Source: a virus
Reading direction: 5' to 3' (one strand)
Length of the DNA: 23,414 nt
IMG/VR virus record: IMGVR_UViG_3300046010_011531
Coordinates: 1-23,414 of that record
The notes beneath the pieces are model-generated. The model ran no database searches. It was given only the letters and a program-made list of their open reading frames with translations, and was not told the DNA's origin. Positions 4,510 through 11,753 of the stretch are shown here, one piece after another (position 1 is the stretch's first letter; every line of letters begins with the position of its first letter). Made by a program: the position numbers and the translations under genes.

Positions 4510-6252
4510 ATGGCAGAAACAATTGTATCACCTGGTGTATTAGCAATAGAAAACGACCAATCATTTATCACTCAAGGACCTGTTACCGCAGGTGCCGCTA
4601 TTATTGGACCAACCGTTAAAGGTAAAGTAGGTATTCCAACCCTATGTACTACTTATAGTGACTATTTAAATAAATTTGGCTCTACTTTTTTAAGTGGGAG
4701 CCAAACTTATTCTTATTTTACCTCAATTGCCGCTTACAACTATTTTAACAATGGAGGGACTACCCTATTAGTTACTAGAGTAGTAGGAGAACCATTTACA
4801 GCAGCAACATCATCTTTTATTTCAGCATCAAGCCACGGAGCTGGTTCACCTTATAACACCAATGTATTTGTTTTAGAAACATTATCCCAAGGTGAACTTA
4901 TGAATAGTACTGGCCCTACAGGTTCAAATGGTACTCTATTAAGCGGATCAGCAGATAATTTTAGATGGGAAATTGCTTCTTCAAATACTGGATCTGGAAC
5001 TTTTTATGTATTAATTCGTCAAGGTAATGATACTACAAATTCACCTTCAATTTTAGAAAGTTGGGGTCCTGTATCATTAGATCCATTTGCTTCAAACTAT
5101 ATTGAAAAAATAATTGGTAATCAAGTTGAAAATGTTCGAAGCGATAGCGGTGAATTTTTTGTTCAACTCTCAGGAAGCTATATTAACCAATCACGTTATG
5201 TTCGTGTAAAACAAGTTAATCAAACAACTCCAAATTATTTTGATAACGTTGGAGATCCAAAACCACAATACACTGGTTCAATTCCATTAAACGCAAGTGG
5301 TTCTTTTGGTAGTGCTGGTGGGAAAAATGTACCAACAGGTGTTGTAGCAAAATATTATGAAAACATTGCTAACGATAATATTCAAGGTATTTCTGCTAGT
5401 GCATATACTCAATCAATATCATTGTTAGCTAACCAAGATGCATACAATTACAATTTACTAGTTGCTCCTGGTTTAGTTAGTAGCTTTGGTTTACCAACCA
5501 CAACTGCTATTAACTTAATGCTTAATACAGTTCAAAATAGAGGAGATGCAATGACCGTCCTTGACCTAGTAGGTTATGGTTCCAACATCAACCCAGTAGC
5601 AACTCAAGCAATTGGTTATAATACTTCATATGCTGCAGCTTATTGGCCATGGCTTCAAACTATTGATCCTGATACTGGAAACCAAGTTTGGGTACCTGCT
5701 TCTGTTATGATCCCTGGTGTGTATGCTTTTAATGATAATGTATCTGCCCCTTGGTTTGCTCCTGCTGGAGTTAATCGTGGAGTTTTAAGTAACGTAATTA
5801 GAACAGAACGTGTATTGACTCAAGGAAATAGAGATTTCTTATACGAAAATAATGTTAACCCAATTGCTACTTTCCCTAATACCGGTGCTGTAGTATTTGG
5901 ACAAAAAACATTACAGAAAAAAGCAAGTGCTTTAGATCGTGTAAACGTACGTCGTTTATTGATTGAACTTAAAAACTACATTTCTCAAATTGCTAATACT
6001 TTAGTATTTGAACAAAATACAGTTACTACTAGAAATAATTTCTTATCTCAAGTAAATCCATATTTGGCATCTGTTCAACAACAACAAGGTTTAACAGCAT
6101 TTAGAGTTGTAATGGATGAAACAAATAATCCACCATCTGTAGTAGACCAAAACCAATTAGTAGGTCAAATCTATTTACAACCTACTCGAACAGCTGAATT
6201 CATTGTACTTGATTTTAATGTATTACCTACTGGTGCAACGTTTCCTGCTTAG
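4510..6252 (+). CDS. 18: Tail sheath protein, first paralogue (gp18-like)
   Basis: A 580-residue protein with the hallmarks of contractile tail sheaths. The N-terminus has SPGV (7-10) and AGAAIIGPTVKG (~27-38), followed by YSDYLNKFG and SIAAYNYFNNGG (~74-85). A variable middle (~90-290) probably forms the protruding domains. The conserved C-terminal core has NVRRLLIELKNYISQIANTL (~479-498), FEQN and a final PTRTAEFIVLDF (~558-569). T4 gp18 has 659 residues. Subunits stack around the tube and contract on infection. The next gene encodes a close paralogue with matching ends and a diverged middle. The ATG follows the late element by 11 bases. Confidence 0.92.
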   Translation: MAETIVSPGVLAIENDQSFITQGPVTAGAAIIGPTVKGKVGIPTLCTTYSDYLNKFGSTFLSGSQTYSYFTSIAAYNYFNNGGTTLLVTRVVGEPFTAATSSFISASSHGAGSPYNTNVFVLETLSQGELMNSTGPTGSNGTLLSGSADNFRWEIASSNTGSGTFYVLIRQGNDTTNSPSILESWGPVSLDPFASNYIEKIIGNQVENVRSDSGEFFVQLSGSYINQSRYVRVKQVNQTTPNYFDNVGDPKPQYTGSIPLNASGSFGSAGGKNVPTGVVAKYYENIANDNIQGISASAYTQSISLLANQDAYNYNLLVAPGLVSSFGLPTTTAINLMLNTVQNRGDAMTVLDLVGYGSNINPVATQAIGYNTSYAAAYWPWLQTIDPDTGNQVWVPASVMIPGVYAFNDNVSAPWFAPAGVNRGVLSNVIRTERVLTQGNRDFLYENNVNPIATFPNTGAVVFGQKTLQKKASALDRVNVRRLLIELKNYISQIANTLVFEQNTVTTRNNFLSQVNPYLASVQQQQGLTAFRVVMDETNNPPSVVDQNQLVGQIYLQPTRTAEFIVLDFNVLPTGATFPA

Positions 6253-6298: not shown

Positions 6299-8020
6299 AT
6301 GGCAAATTTCACAACTTCTCCTGGAGTAGCAATTAGCGAAGTAGACAACACTTTCTTAACTGGACAACCAGTTCAAGCAGGTGCTGCTATTATAGGTCCT
6401 ACAGTAAAAGGTCCTGTTGAAAACCCAATTCTTGTAACTTCTTATTCAGATTTCGTAGCAATCTTTGGAGATACATTTATTAGTGGTGGTCAAGCACAAT
6501 CTTACTTAACTTCAATTGCTGCTTACAATTATTTTAATTACGGAGGAACTTCATTATTGGTTGCTCGTGTAGTATCTGAATCTGTTAGCTGGTCCTCAGC
6601 ACAAAGCACTACAATTCCATCTTACCTAAATGCAACTTCAGCTTCATTTGTTTTAGAAACAATTTCTGAAGGAGTTATTATGAATAACTCTAGTTCAATT
6701 GTTGGAGCTTCAGGTTCATTAGTTTCAGGTTCAGAAAATAACGTTCGTTGGGAAATTACTAATTCAAATACTGGATCAGGTACGTTTAATGTATTAGTTA
6801 GACGTGGTAACGATATTGAAAATAACAAAGTTATTTTAGAATCATGGAATAACTTAACATTAGATCCTAATTCAAATCGCTATATCGCTCAAGTAATTGG
6901 TGATCAAGTACTAAACTATAACTCATCAACATTCCAAATGGAATTATCTGGAAGTTATCCAAATAATTCAAAATATGTTCGTGTAAGATCAGTTAATTTA
7001 CCTACTCCAAACTATTTTGATGCAAATGGCATTGCATTAAATGCTTATACCTCTTCTATCCCAGTAAATGGTAGTGGCTCAGCAGGAGGTTCATTTACAA
7101 GTGCTACAGGTACTGTAAATAATACTATTAACTTGTATGATACTATTTCAACAAATACACAAGGATTAACTGGTGCTAGTTATAATAATATGATTGCATT
7201 GCTTGGAAATCCTGAAGCATATCAATTTAACTTATTATTTACTCCTGGTTTAACAAATGATAACCATGCAGCTCAAGTAACTAGTATTATTAACAATACT
7301 ATTGCTAGAGGTGATAACATGTATGTTGTAGATCTAGTAGATTACAATAGCACCGTTGGTGAAGCAGTAACACAAGCCCAATCTCGTGATACTTCATATG
7401 CCGCAGCTTATTGGCCTTGGGTTCGCATTATCGATCCAGGAACAGGAAGACAAGTTTGGGTACCAGCTTCTACAGTAATCCCAGGTGTTTATGCTTTCAA
7501 CGATAGAGTATCAGCTCCTTGGTTTGCCCCAGCAGGTATTAACCGCGGTGGATTAAACACAGTACTTCAAGCACAATTGAAATTGACGCAAGGTAATCGT
7601 GATACGCTATATAGCAACAATATTAACCCTATTGCAACGCTACCTAAACAAGGTGTAGTAGTATACGGTCAGAAAACATTACAAAAATCTCAATCTGCTC
7701 TTGATCGTGTAAACGTTCGTCGTTTAATGATTGAATTAAAATCATATATCAAGCAAATTGCAGATACAGTAGTATTTGAACAAAATACAATTGCAACTAG
7801 AAATTCATTTGTAGCACGTGTTACCCCATTCTTAGAAGGAATCCAACAAAAACAAGGATTGTATGCTTACAAAGTTGTTATGGATACTACAAATAATGGT
7901 CCGGCTGTAATTGATCAAAACCAATTAGTAGGTCAAATTTATATCCAACCAACTCGCACAGCTGAATTCATTTCATTAGATTTCATCTTAATGCCAACAG
8001 GAGCTGAATTTCCAGGATAA
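6299..8020 (+). CDS. 18: Tail sheath protein, second paralogue (gp18-like)
   Basis: A 573-residue sheath protein in tandem with the first. The same landmarks are present: SPGV (7-10), AGAAIIGPTVKGP (~27-39), SIAAYNYFNYGGTSLLVARV, then SYAAAYWPW, VWVPASTVIPGVYAFNDRVS and SAPWFAPAGINRGG in the core. The C-terminus has NVRRLMIELKSYIKQIADTV (~472-491) and PTRTAEFISLDF. By eye the two are well over half identical at both ends and much more different at ~90-290. Both keep all core segments, so neither looks decayed. T4 itself has one sheath gene. A mixed sheath, or alternative use of the two, is possible. Confidence 0.92.
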   Translation: MANFTTSPGVAISEVDNTFLTGQPVQAGAAIIGPTVKGPVENPILVTSYSDFVAIFGDTFISGGQAQSYLTSIAAYNYFNYGGTSLLVARVVSESVSWSSAQSTTIPSYLNATSASFVLETISEGVIMNNSSSIVGASGSLVSGSENNVRWEITNSNTGSGTFNVLVRRGNDIENNKVILESWNNLTLDPNSNRYIAQVIGDQVLNYNSSTFQMELSGSYPNNSKYVRVRSVNLPTPNYFDANGIALNAYTSSIPVNGSGSAGGSFTSATGTVNNTINLYDTISTNTQGLTGASYNNMIALLGNPEAYQFNLLFTPGLTNDNHAAQVTSIINNTIARGDNMYVVDLVDYNSTVGEAVTQAQSRDTSYAAAYWPWVRIIDPGTGRQVWVPASTVIPGVYAFNDRVSAPWFAPAGINRGGLNTVLQAQLKLTQGNRDTLYSNNINPIATLPKQGVVVYGQKTLQKSQSALDRVNVRRLMIELKSYIKQIADTVVFEQNTIATRNSFVARVTPFLEGIQQKQGLYAYKVVMDTTNNGPAVIDQNQLVGQIYIQPTRTAEFISLDFILMPTGAEFPG

Positions 8021-8066: not shown

Positions 8067-8555
8067 ATGGCAATTTTAAATCCAAACGAAATATTTTTTA
8101 CAGCGTTTGAACCTAAACAAACAAACCGTTTTATCCTTTATATGGATGGTGTTCCATCATATTTGGTAAAAGGAGTAAGTGCAGTATCTTTAGCACAAAC
8201 CGCAGTTCCACTCAATCATATTAACGTTCAACGTTATGTAAAAGGAAAGACCATTTGGAATACAATTTCCTTTACATTATATGATGCAATTACTCCAAGT
8301 GGTGCACAAGCGGTAATGGAATGGGTACGTTTAGGCCACGAATCAGTAACAGGCCGTGATGGTTACTCAGATTTCTATAAAAAAGATATTACGTTTAATG
8401 TTATTGGACCTGTAGGTGATATCGTTTCTGAATGGATCATTAAAGGAGCTGTTATTACAAGTGCTGGATTTGGTGATTATAATTGGGATGACGATGGAAC
8501 TCCAACAAACATCACAGTTGAAGTACAACCTGATTACTGTATCTTGAATTTCTAA
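8067..8555 (+). CDS. 19: Tail tube protein (gp19-like)
   Basis: A 162-residue protein, essentially the length of T4 gp19 (163). It starts with an N-terminal PNEIFFTAFEPKQTNRFILY segment (~6-25) followed by the beta-rich tube fold (VPSYLVKGVSAVSLAQ; WNTISFTLYDAITPSG). The C-terminal part includes WIIKGAVITSAGFGDYNWDD and a final beta strand (ITVEVQPDYCIL). Hexameric rings of this protein form the rigid inner tube through which DNA passes. It lies directly after the sheath genes, the usual order in contractile phages. A strong terminator hairpin follows the stop by 25 bases, so the sheath-tube region ends as a defined transcription unit. Confidence 0.9.
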   Translation: MAILNPNEIFFTAFEPKQTNRFILYMDGVPSYLVKGVSAVSLAQTAVPLNHINVQRYVKGKTIWNTISFTLYDAITPSGAQAVMEWVRLGHESVTGRDGYSDFYKKDITFNVIGPVGDIVSEWIIKGAVITSAGFGDYNWDDDGTPTNITVEVQPDYCILNF

Positions 8556-8580
8556 GAACAAAACAACAAAATATATGAAA

Positions 8581-8614
8581 GCTCCAAAGAAATTTGGGGC
8601 TTTTATTTTCTTTC
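8581..8614 (+). terminator. Rho-independent terminator after the tail tube gene
   Basis: GCTCCAAA (8581-8588) pairs with TTTGGGGC (8593-8600) through eight pairs with one G-U wobble, closed by a GAAA tetraloop (8589-8592). A T-rich run (8601-8614) follows, and three A residues before the stem can extend the pairing into it. It is the only clear intrinsic terminator I see in the window. Its presence also argues that the ATG at 8575 is not a real start. Confidence 0.8.
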
Positions 8615-8628
8615 AATATATTGGATCT

Positions 8629-10593
8629 ATGAAAAAACTATTAATATTTCTTTTATTGACCTTTGTAGGTTATGGTCAATACTGTCCTGCTTTAGGACCT
8701 GATCAAATTTTGCCCTGTGGTGTAGGATCAACAACACTTACTGCTGACTTGAGCCAATGTGGTACTGGAGCCTTACCCAAACAAACCGTTAACTATGCAG
8801 TTTCCAATATACCCTATGTAACCCAAAACAACACCGGAATTCAGTTGTTTATGGGTGATGATACCCAACAAGGACCATTTAATATTGGATTTACATTTTG
8901 TTTCTTTGGCCAAACATATACACAATTTTGGGTTGGATCAAATGGTTGGATTTCATTCTCCCCAGGACAACCTACTACTTTTACAACACAAACAATTCCA
9001 ACAGGTAATGCTTTAGTACCTAAAAATTGTATTATGGGTCCTTGGCAGGATTGGCATCCTGGAATTGGAGGGCAAATTAGATACCAAACAAGTGGGGTTG
9101 CACCTTGTAGAAAACTAACAGTAAGTTGGACAAATATGCCAATGTTTAGTTGCACTGGAAATCAGGGAACATTTCATATTGTAATTTATGAATCAACTAA
9201 TTTTATTGAAAGTTATATTCAAAATAAACCAGCCTGTTTACAATGGCAAGGTGGAACTGCTACCCAAGGCATACACAATGCTGCTGGTACTATAGGAATT
9301 ACAGTACCTGGGAGAAATTCCTCAGCTTGGACAACCACAAATGATGCTTGGAGATGGACTCCCTCTGGACCAACAGTAAATCCTATTTTAACTTGGTATC
9401 AAGTAGGTAATCCTGTAGCTATAGGAACAGGACCTACCCTTAATGTAACACCTGTAGGGCCTACTCAATATACTTGCCAATTAACTTATCCAACATGTAA
9501 TGCTGGTTGGTCGGCTTGTAATGGAGGTACTGGTTTAGGTCCCGATACAGTACTAGTTGTGCCTGGTCCACCCATTCCATCAACAGGACCTATTAATGGA
9601 GTAGATACTATATGTTATTTAAGTTCCTATGAAATGTATGATGTACCTGCAGTAGCAGGATACAATTACTTATGGAGTAGTGTTTCCCCTATCACCTCAG
9701 GACAAGGAACTAATATTATTACAGTAGACTTCAGCCCATTCACCCCAGGATTTATACCAGGAGCTATCCAAGTTACTCCAGAATCAAATGGATGTATTGG
9801 TGCTCCTGTTACTATAGATTTATTTATTTTAAATGTAGTACCTACAATTGATCCTATAGGACCGTTTTGTGAATACGACGAATTTGTTACTTTAAACATG
9901 AATCCAATCGGAGGAATACTTAGTGGTATAGGTGTTGCTGGTAATGAATTTTATCCATCAAACGCGATAGGAACAAATACTATTAATTACGAATACACAT
10001 TAAGTGGATGTACTTTTGATACAACTACTTTAGTAACAGTGTATCCTCAACCAACACTTGATTCAATTGCTCCATACAATCCATTTTATGAGTTATGTGA
10101 AGGTGACTCAGTATCAACATTATTTACAGCCATATCAAACTTACCAGGATATAATGAATGGTCATTTATGGGTGTTACATACCAACAAGATAATTTAAAT
10201 ATTACGTTTGATACTGAAGGAATGTTCCCTTTATCAGTAATACATTATTCAAATGGGTGTGCTTCACCTCAACAACAAACAGTAATTACAATTGTAGTTT
10301 GTCCTGAACTACTATTTTATATTCCTAACTCATTTACACCCGACGACAACGAACATAATCAAACCTGGTTACCCGTATTTACTACTGGTATAGATTATTA
10401 TGATTATCGCTTAACTGTTTATAATCGCTGGGGAGAATGTGTATTTGAATCATTAAATGCTGCCGAAGGTTGGGATGGAACATATAATAATCGTAAATGT
10501 CAAGATGGAATCTATGTATATGATGTTAACTTCGGTGTAACTGAAACCAGCTATCAATATACAGTTCGAGGACATTTTACTTTAATTCGATAG
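8629..10593 (+). CDS. Secreted lectin/Ig-like protein with T9SS type B sorting domain
   Basis: A 654-residue protein from ATG 8629. That start places a classic signal peptide (MKKLLIFLLLTFVGYG, cleavage likely before or after Gln17) at the N-terminus; the in-frame ATG at 8575 would put the terminator hairpin in the coding sequence. Residues ~20-240 look like the beta-sandwich of large Bacteroidetes surface proteins (FTFCFFGQTYTQFWVGSNGW; FHIVIYESTNFIESYIQNKP). Ig/PKD-like repeats follow (~245-560), with many Cys. The last ~90 residues (565-654) match the gliding-motility-associated C-terminal domain: IPNSFTPDD, YRLTVYNRWGECVFES, WDGTYNN, DGIYVYDV, GHFTLIR. In Bacteroidetes this directs export by the type IX system. 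Whether the product is on the virion or the host surface is unknown; host origin is likely. Confidence 0.85.
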   Translation: MKKLLIFLLLTFVGYGQYCPALGPDQILPCGVGSTTLTADLSQCGTGALPKQTVNYAVSNIPYVTQNNTGIQLFMGDDTQQGPFNIGFTFCFFGQTYTQFWVGSNGWISFSPGQPTTFTTQTIPTGNALVPKNCIMGPWQDWHPGIGGQIRYQTSGVAPCRKLTVSWTNMPMFSCTGNQGTFHIVIYESTNFIESYIQNKPACLQWQGGTATQGIHNAAGTIGITVPGRNSSAWTTTNDAWRWTPSGPTVNPILTWYQVGNPVAIGTGPTLNVTPVGPTQYTCQLTYPTCNAGWSACNGGTGLGPDTVLVVPGPPIPSTGPINGVDTICYLSSYEMYDVPAVAGYNYLWSSVSPITSGQGTNIITVDFSPFTPGFIPGAIQVTPESNGCIGAPVTIDLFILNVVPTIDPIGPFCEYDEFVTLNMNPIGGILSGIGVAGNEFYPSNAIGTNTINYEYTLSGCTFDTTTLVTVYPQPTLDSIAPYNPFYELCEGDSVSTLFTAISNLPGYNEWSFMGVTYQQDNLNITFDTEGMFPLSVIHYSNGCASPQQQTVITIVVCPELLFYIPNSFTPDDNEHNQTWLPVFTTGIDYYDYRLTVYNRWGECVFESLNAAEGWDGTYNNRKCQDGIYVYDVNFGVTETSYQYTVRGHFTLIR

Positions 10594-10597
10594 GCCA

Positions 10598-10614
10598 ATA
10601 TTTATAAACATATG
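10598..10614 (+). promoter_or_regulatory. Conserved late element, copy 6, abutting the start codon
   Basis: ATATTTATAAACATATG: the first ten bases match the consensus, but the ATG at 10612 begins only three bases after TATAAA (10603-10608). As a -10 box this would put the transcript start at or inside the start codon, so either the mRNA is leaderless or the element is not a simple -10. Confidence 0.4.
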
Positions 10615-10983
10615 AAACTAGATAGTTTACGTACATTAGTTAAAGAGGAGCTTAGTAAGCGACTAAATGAGGATTACCAAGACAAATTTAAAATGGTAGG
10701 TATGCTTATTACCAACATTAAGAAACGCCCTCAAAAAGAAATCTTTTCCGATATCCGCTCAATCCCAGGTGTTACAGTAGCATCTGTAAAAGAACCCATG
10801 GAATATAGTGAACAAAATACAGAAAAATTCCAATCTATAATGACCGTTAAAGTAGATGGACATCCATGGATTTCTTCTAGTGGGTTTGACCGTTCGAAAA
10901 TGGAAGATATCCGCAAAGCTATATTGAAAGTAGAAGGAGTATTATCATACAATGTAAATCCTGATAATATTTCTGCTCTTTAA
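10612..10983 (+). CDS. Small conserved phage protein, ferredoxin-like fold suspected
   Basis: A 123-residue protein with no function I can name. Residues 1-25 form a charged helix (MKLDSLRTLVKEELSKRLNE). Residues ~28-115 alternate strands and helices: KMVGMLITNI, then a helix with FSDIRSIPGVTVASV, a strand around SIMTVKVDG, a helix DRSKMEDIRKAILKVEGV and a closing strand. This suggests a beta-alpha-beta-beta-alpha-beta (ACT/ferredoxin-like) fold. It sits 18 bases after the secreted protein and before the gp26-like gene. A tail-assembly role follows only from position. Confidence 0.6.
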   Translation: MKLDSLRTLVKEELSKRLNEDYQDKFKMVGMLITNIKKRPQKEIFSDIRSIPGVTVASVKEPMEYSEQNTEKFQSIMTVKVDGHPWISSSGFDRSKMEDIRKAILKVEGVLSYNVNPDNISAL

Positions 10984-11024: not shown

Positions 11025-11753
11025 ATGAGCGAATTTAAATTACCAACTGAAACAGTTGAATTACCTTCTAAAGGTTTACTTTACCCTGAAGATTCTGAAT
11101 TAGCAAAAGGAGTAGTAGAAATTAAATACATGACTGCTAAGGAAGAAGATATCCTTACAAACCAATCATATATTAAAAACGGTACTGTACTCGATAAATT
11201 ACTCAAATCGTTAATTGTATCAAAAATTAATTTTGATGAACTTTTAGTTGGTGATAAGAACGCAATCATGGTTGCAGCCCGTATCCTAGGATATGGCTCA
11301 GATTACTCATTTGATTATTTGGGTGAATCACACACAGTAGATTTATCTCAAATTGAAAATAAACCACTACATGAAGACTTATTAAAGTCTAAGTCAAATG
11401 ATTTCCCATTTACCCTTCCTAAATCAGGTAATACAATTACATTTAAGATTTTAACTCATAAAGACGAACAAGATATTAACCGTGAACTAGAAGGTTTAAA
11501 GAAAATCAATAAAGATGCTTCCCCTGAACTTTCAACTCGTTTAAAATATCTTATTACTTCAGTAAATGGAGATAGAGAAAAAAAATCTGTTCGAGAGTTT
11601 GTCGACGGGTATCTGTTAGCTCAAGATTCTCGGGCATTAAGAGAATATGTTAAAGAAGTTCAACCCGACGTTGATCTAACTTTTTTTCCCGACGAGTCTG
11701 ACAGTAGAGTCAATATCCCAATTGGGGTTAGCTTTTTTTGGCCTGACATTTGA
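11025..11753 (+). CDS. 26: Baseplate hub assembly protein, gp26-like
   Basis: A 242-residue protein whose N-terminus (VELPSKGLLYPEDSEL, ~11-26, then VEIKYMTAKEEDILTNQSYI, ~31-50) is characteristic of the T4 gp26 baseplate family; T4 gp26 has 208 residues. In T4 this protein acts in assembly of the central hub. A helical segment with VLDKLLKSLIV follows. The C-terminus is SFFWPDI. It lies between the tube and tape measure genes, the place of the tail-assembly chaperones in other contractile phages. Its 3' end overlaps the next ORF by 32 bases at a run of seven T residues (11733-11739), where a frameshift could fuse the two products. Confidence 0.75.
   Translation: MSEFKLPTETVELPSKGLLYPEDSELAKGVVEIKYMTAKEEDILTNQSYIKNGTVLDKLLKSLIVSKINFDELLVGDKNAIMVAARILGYGSDYSFDYLGESHTVDLSQIENKPLHEDLLKSKSNDFPFTLPKSGNTITFKILTHKDEQDINRELEGLKKINKDASPELSTRLKYLITSVNGDREKKSVREFVDGYLLAQDSRALREYVKEVQPDVDLTFFPDESDSRVNIPIGVSFFWPDI

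Follow-up and report, generated by a model that had tools for sequence, protein, structure and literature searches.

Background

The type IX secretion system (T9SS) is limited to Bacteroidota and relatives. The type B sorting domains of its cargo pair specifically with PorP/SprF shuttles (PMC9143113, PMC12618676). Type B secretion requires five conserved CTD motifs, and orphan cargo that shares the shuttle of another cargo is known (PMC12618676). The occurrence of Q directly after the signal peptide is known as the Bacteroidota Q-rule (PMC5837995). Cargo of this kind has been predicted in phages: Cryophage encodes an endoglucanase, a glycoside hydrolase and a PA14 protein predicted to be type A T9SS cargo (Bellas et al. 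2020, PMC7468147), and sorting domains near structural genes are described for crAss-like phages by de Jonge et al. (2019, PMC6949934). Here we describe a phage gene for a predicted type B cargo that is inserted into a tail cassette, together with its relatives in other phages.

The window and the position of the gene

The window, i.e. the whole analysed stretch of 23,414 bases from IMG/VR, contains tail genes of a T4-like phage, among them those for a head-tail adaptor, two sheath proteins, the tube and a baseplate hub. The sheath genes are arranged in tandem (4510-6252 and 6299-8020), and in relatives the two sheath proteins share 53-58 % identity. The immediate neighbours of the gene under study, here called the exported-protein gene, are the tube gene and the accessory gene gF (Table 1). 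Re-examination of the sequence showed that an earlier note on this DNA had correctly described the ORF, its start and the motifs of the product, and had correctly placed the gene between the tail tube and the tape measure. The program-made list of ORFs begins this frame at 8575, but the correct start is the ATG at 8629, since the alignment of homologs begins there and the stretch 8575-8606 forms a terminator-like hairpin.

The product of gF opens with a short leader, MKLDSLRTLVKEEL. Proteins opening with short leaders, e.g. MKIIITESQ or MKKIIRLTESDL, were also seen in L063, L070, L077, L081 and L044, and all of these could possibly be capsid-targeting leaders of internal proteins.

Table 1. 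Features of the insertion slot and of the exported-protein gene in the window
Feature	Position	Strand	Remarks
Tail tube gene, 5' flank of the insertion slot	8067..8555	+	PHROG 4542, E 3.7e-19
Terminator-like hairpin between the tube gene and the exported-protein gene	8575..8606	+	
TATATTGG, 5' of the exported-protein gene	8617..8624	+	At this place the exact late-like TATATTTATA stands in several three-gene operons of the slot
Exported-protein gene, 654 aa	8629..10593	+	
Sec signal peptide MKKLLIFLLLTFVGYG, then Q17	8629..8676	+	Sequence inspection; Q at the same place in 80/80 viral homologs
N-terminal domain, residues 17-314, cysteine-rich	8677..9570	+	78 % mean identity among phages
PKD_6 domain, residues 318-389	9580..9795	+	In the three-gene form, carried by a signal-peptide-bearing protein of its own
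T9SS type B sorting domain, residues 565-654; block swapped among relatives	10321..10590	+	
Late-like element ATATTTATA ahead of gF, the next gene	10598..10606	+	
123-aa accessory gene gF, 3' of the slot	10612..10983	+	Found with or without the exported-protein gene
Baseplate hub-like gene, conserved 3' flank	11025..11753	+	PHROG 150, E 8.5e-9

Export signals and domains of the 654-aa protein

The T9SS sorting domain that the earlier note had proposed for the last 90 residues was clearly recovered with profile models. Residues 565-654 matched TIGR04131 with 47.5-51.8 bits (curated cut-off 35) and the C-terminal domain matched Pfam CHU_C with 47.5 bits (curated cut-off 27), which is far from chance. 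In aligned relatives these 90 residues form conserved blocks, whose invariant core comprises N567, F569, T570, P571, N599, R600, W601, G602, W615, D616, G617, G627, Y629 and G648 (alignments of 25 and 40). A scan of viral records yielded 141 relatives, and in all of the best 80, which were fetched, Q directly follows the hydrophobic signal peptide; the pattern used permitted Q or E after the cut and only Q was seen, while in L080 the contig edge cuts inside the signal peptide. The dN/dS ratio was about 0.12-0.13 overall and 0.08-0.11 over the sorting domain. These values, the invariant Q and the invariant core residues indicate that the export signals are under selection.

The protein contains 20 cysteines (3.06 %), whereas the 21 other proteins of the window together have 0.26 % (Fisher p 4.7e-12). 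Such richness fits what would be expected of a disulfide-bonded extracellular protein, unlike one assembled in the cytoplasm. For the N-domain, searches of Pfam, PHROG and NCBIfam gave no match, and no solved relative was found by sequence. SprB repeats were not found in the window protein; several phage relatives, e.g. L063 and L065, have them.

The AlphaFold2 model of the protein is a chain of beta domains (mean pLDDT 82.8, pTM 0.43). Its best match among solved structures was to repeats of GhpA, the grappling hook protein of Aureispira (E 9e-13, TM-scores 0.20-0.42), a likeness that in the model is one of Ig/PKD repeats alone. Matches in the viral structure library include separate phage proteins of 185-187 residues, the size of the split modules described below.

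An accessory gene in and outside tail cassettes

A scan for tube genes, together with three named records, gave 83 cassettes, of which 65 do not have the gene, six have it (one in split form) and 12 are cut off. The tube gene in the 65 cassettes with an empty slot is mostly followed directly by gF or the hub gene. L167, whose tube and gF are 91 and 95 % identical to those of the window, respectively, lacks the exported-protein gene, and in the isolate Flavobacterium phage Immuto the hub gene directly follows the tube gene. Small genes of other kinds (267, 222, 89 and 573 aa) occupy the tube-hub interval in L177, L190, L223, L239, L198 and L243, and this variety marks the slot as an insertion hot spot. 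The suggestion of the earlier note that the gene might be a moron is supported by the empty slots in close relatives and by its insertion between genes that are adjacent there; its absence from relatives also suggests that the gene would be dispensable for virion assembly.

Tail genes homologous to those of the window adjoin the gene in 52 of the 80 loci, whereas no homolog of a window gene is nearby in the remaining 28, some of which are short contigs. In a 169-kb contig (G007) the sheath gene lies about 85 kb from the exported-protein gene. A copy is also carried by the 634-kb phage LR745206; genomes of this size have been described as curated, Bacteroidetes-infecting Mahaphages (PMC7162821). 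LR745206.1 (W01) matches the type B sorting domain at four places, three of which exceed the cut-off, and type A above the cut-off at two, and several large IMG/VR contigs also carry one type A T9SS protein. One tail-context copy (L040:967) has its frame broken after 174 codons and is possibly a pseudogene or an assembly error.

The place of the gene in the tail cassette, between the tube and baseplate genes, could be taken to mean that its product is a virion protein, i.e. a tail-associated adhesin that reuses a Bacteroidota surface fold and is built into the particle in the cytoplasm. Ig/PKD-like domains are common on phage virions, and the structure matches include virion proteins of similar fold. 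Such an adhesin is nevertheless unlikely in view of the invariant Q after the signal peptide, the cysteine richness, the absence of the gene from close relatives whose tail cassettes match in other respects and its location distant from tail genes in other phages. With 20 cysteines, a slot left empty in 65 cassettes and relatives that lie far from tail genes elsewhere, the 654-aa protein is probably not a tail protein. Of the two possibilities raised in the earlier note, export and a virion fold reused, the former is favoured by the invariant Q, the 12-fold cysteine content, the invariant core of the sorting domain and the dispensable, mobile position.

Relatives and exchange of the sorting domain

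Bacteroidota genomes encode longer homologs with the same N-domain, many of them with a sorting domain. The nearest full-length cellular homologs have 815-1400 aa, in comparison to 654-743 aa for the phage proteins, and of 395 Bacteroidota species sampled, 49 have the N-domain. All 46 phage rows group together in a maximum-likelihood tree of this domain, as a single clade (100/97) apart from the Bacteroidota homologs. Tail and non-tail contexts are mixed in the tree (8 changes) and a tail-only clade was rejected (p-AU 0.001), so the gene has moved repeatedly between phages or positions. Among named phage isolates no relative was found, the only hits being three metagenomic records, and a plasmid search gave nothing beyond sorting-domain matches or short partial matches.

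The abundance of bacterial relatives might raise the suspicion that a mis-assembled metagenome fused a bacterial gene to a phage contig. This is hardly credible and already refuted by replication: the same junctions were found in about 50 contigs from many samples. The separate phage clade (100/97) and the copy in the LR745206 record also argue against it.

The mean identity among phages is 78 % for the N-domain and 55 % for the sorting domain. Compared with L007, the window has about 85 % DNA identity along the gene, but 67 % from 10317 to about 10600 and, immediately after that, 94 %. Judged by sequence, the sorting domain is exchanged as a block between close relatives.

A phage-encoded PorP/SprF shuttle was considered and rejected, as a search of 27 phage records revealed no shuttle gene, whereas the same search detected 10-22 PorP/SprF copies in each of nine cellular genomes with a homolog. 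With no shuttle from the phage, a host shuttle must accept the domain, and the phages may exchange the sorting domain to match the shuttles of their hosts. These natural swaps of the address domain provide ready material for working out the cargo preferences of the shuttles.

The lack of a shuttle gene in the 27 records would also suit a protein that is exported but remains periplasmic or is released by lysis and acts there, e.g. on the envelope, its sorting domain being vestigial; the same may be said of the three-gene form, whose first two proteins have no T9SS domain. A vestige is difficult to reconcile with the purifying selection on the sorting domain and with its invariant core, and we rank this improbable explanation below the virion adhesin.

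Upstream elements

The element ATATTTATA occurs in nine + strand copies in the window, each directly before a gene and never before the 654-aa gene. The statement of the earlier note that no late element stands in front of the gene is thus valid for the exact ATATTTATA, but it overlooks a partial TATATT at the equivalent place, which is present in most tail-context fused copies. TATATTGG may possibly be a degenerate late element. In non-tail contexts TATTTAT is found within 45 nt in 13 of 19 copies, in comparison to 2.2 % of background tiles, and in the three-gene operons within 60 nt in 14 of 18. Late expression of the gene appears likely. The terminator reported ahead of the gene is a clear hairpin, although it is also kept in L167, where the slot is empty; most fused-form tail relatives have it as well.

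A host-type promoter, TTTG-N20-TATATTxG, was matched by 19 of 29 tail copies, versus 1.1 % of the background. This candidate was rejected since in most cases the -7 box stops 4 nt short of the ATG, which would put the start site at or after the start codon, and since the copies are near-identical.

The three-gene form

In L169 (3865-5630) the slot of the window is occupied by three ORFs in a row, all of which start with a signal peptide followed by Q. A further scan yielded 103 relatives of the middle protein, with three-gene loci among L256-L334. In about 70 loci that were fetched, of which some are truncated or varied, the genes encode, in order, a first protein (usually about 197 aa, varied), a PKD_6 protein (about 187 aa) and a sorting-domain protein (about 188 aa). 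The three-gene form lies in the slot of the window in 21 loci (20 with the tube gene upstream and L314 with gF downstream). In a quick tree the split modules group as a single clade (SH-aLRT 99), and in the 395 Bacteroidota species the middle module was found only within longer ORFs, the shortest listed having 252 aa.

The T9SS domain is confined to the third protein, so the first two would either stay in the periplasm or be co-exported by binding. These two proteins end in an I-x-H-N tail, rarely in H-D. The fetched viral loci have 322 ORFs with a signal peptide, and of these 120 end in HN, always as I-x-H-N, in comparison to 6 of 2000 other ORFs; four further signal-peptide ORFs end in HD. 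The codons of the tail vary synonymously (CAT/CAC, AAT/AAC and ATA/ATT/ATC), which indicates selection on the peptide, and a nucleotide-level cause such as start/stop coupling was rejected on the same ground. In sequence comparison the tails match the linkers between modules of the fused protein, which in the window read GPIN-GVDTICY and DSIAPYN-PFYELCE. Donor-strand complementation by the tail was also rejected, as the 187-aa middle protein is predicted to be complete, with pLDDT of about 95 in the body, a free tail and no missing strand.

Tentatively, the three-gene form may be a phage-built multi-subunit surface fibre. The subunits, each with its own signal peptide, would be joined by docking of the I-x-H-N tail into the next module in the manner of the linker of the fused protein, and the whole chain would be hauled through the host T9SS by the sorting-domain subunit. 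In this possible, though rather doubtful, arrangement a complex assembled beforehand would be secreted piggyback, and the fused gene of the window would be a one-piece version of it. The three-gene form and its tail could reveal a principle of T9SS assembly or co-secretion; to our knowledge no such principle is known for T9SS.

Proposed function

The explanation that we favour, with a probability of roughly 0.8, is that of an accessory phage gene (moron) for a T9SS type B cargo, which would be displayed on the infected cell via the host T9SS and most likely alter the cell surface. Sec would export the protein in the infected Bacteroidota cell, and the signal peptide would be cut off before Q17, which would be cyclised to pyroglutamate. 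The host T9SS would then move the protein through the outer membrane with the help of a host shuttle of the PorP/SprF type, and the disulfide-rich multi-domain protein would be displayed on the surface with its conserved N-domain outward. Export is well supported by the predicted signals; as to the purpose, we infer that the changed surface of the infected cell may block re-adsorption or superinfection, or may mediate adhesion. Blocking of re-adsorption or superinfection is ranked by us as the most plausible use, followed by adhesion or aggregation and, lastly, by decoration of the virion. The family offers testable subjects for phage remodelling of the infected-cell surface.

Comparison with known systems

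In the literature, as far as open-licence papers are concerned, no report of this type B phage family or of a split form was found. Phage T9SS cargo has been predicted before, and what appears to be new here, judging from sequences, is the type B family and its split form. Cargo addressed to the T9SS of the host is carried by a broad range of phages, which extends from T4-like tailed ones to a huge phage of 634 kb.

The window protein resembles cellular type B cargo such as SprB of Flavobacterium johnsoniae in its signal peptide, in middle domains of PKD/SprB type (the SprB repeats being those of several phage relatives) and in an over-cut-off sorting domain. It differs from cellular type B cargo in being phage-encoded and shorter and in that no shuttle gene was found in the phages. 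Its likeness to GhpA of Aureispira is that of Ig/PKD-like repeats and gives no evidence of a hook architecture. As in Cryophage, the T9SS-labelled protein is phage-encoded, accessory and variable, with a proposed hijack of the host system; unlike the type A cargo of Cryophage, it is of type B, has a conserved N-domain, is common to different phages and occupies a slot among tail genes. The crAss-like phages of PMC6949934 share with the present locus T9SS sorting domains near structural genes of Bacteroidota phages, but they are gut phages whose T9SS proteins are linked to BACON repeats and are described in the relevant passages without a multi-gene form, whereas the family reported here exists both as a fused gene and as three.
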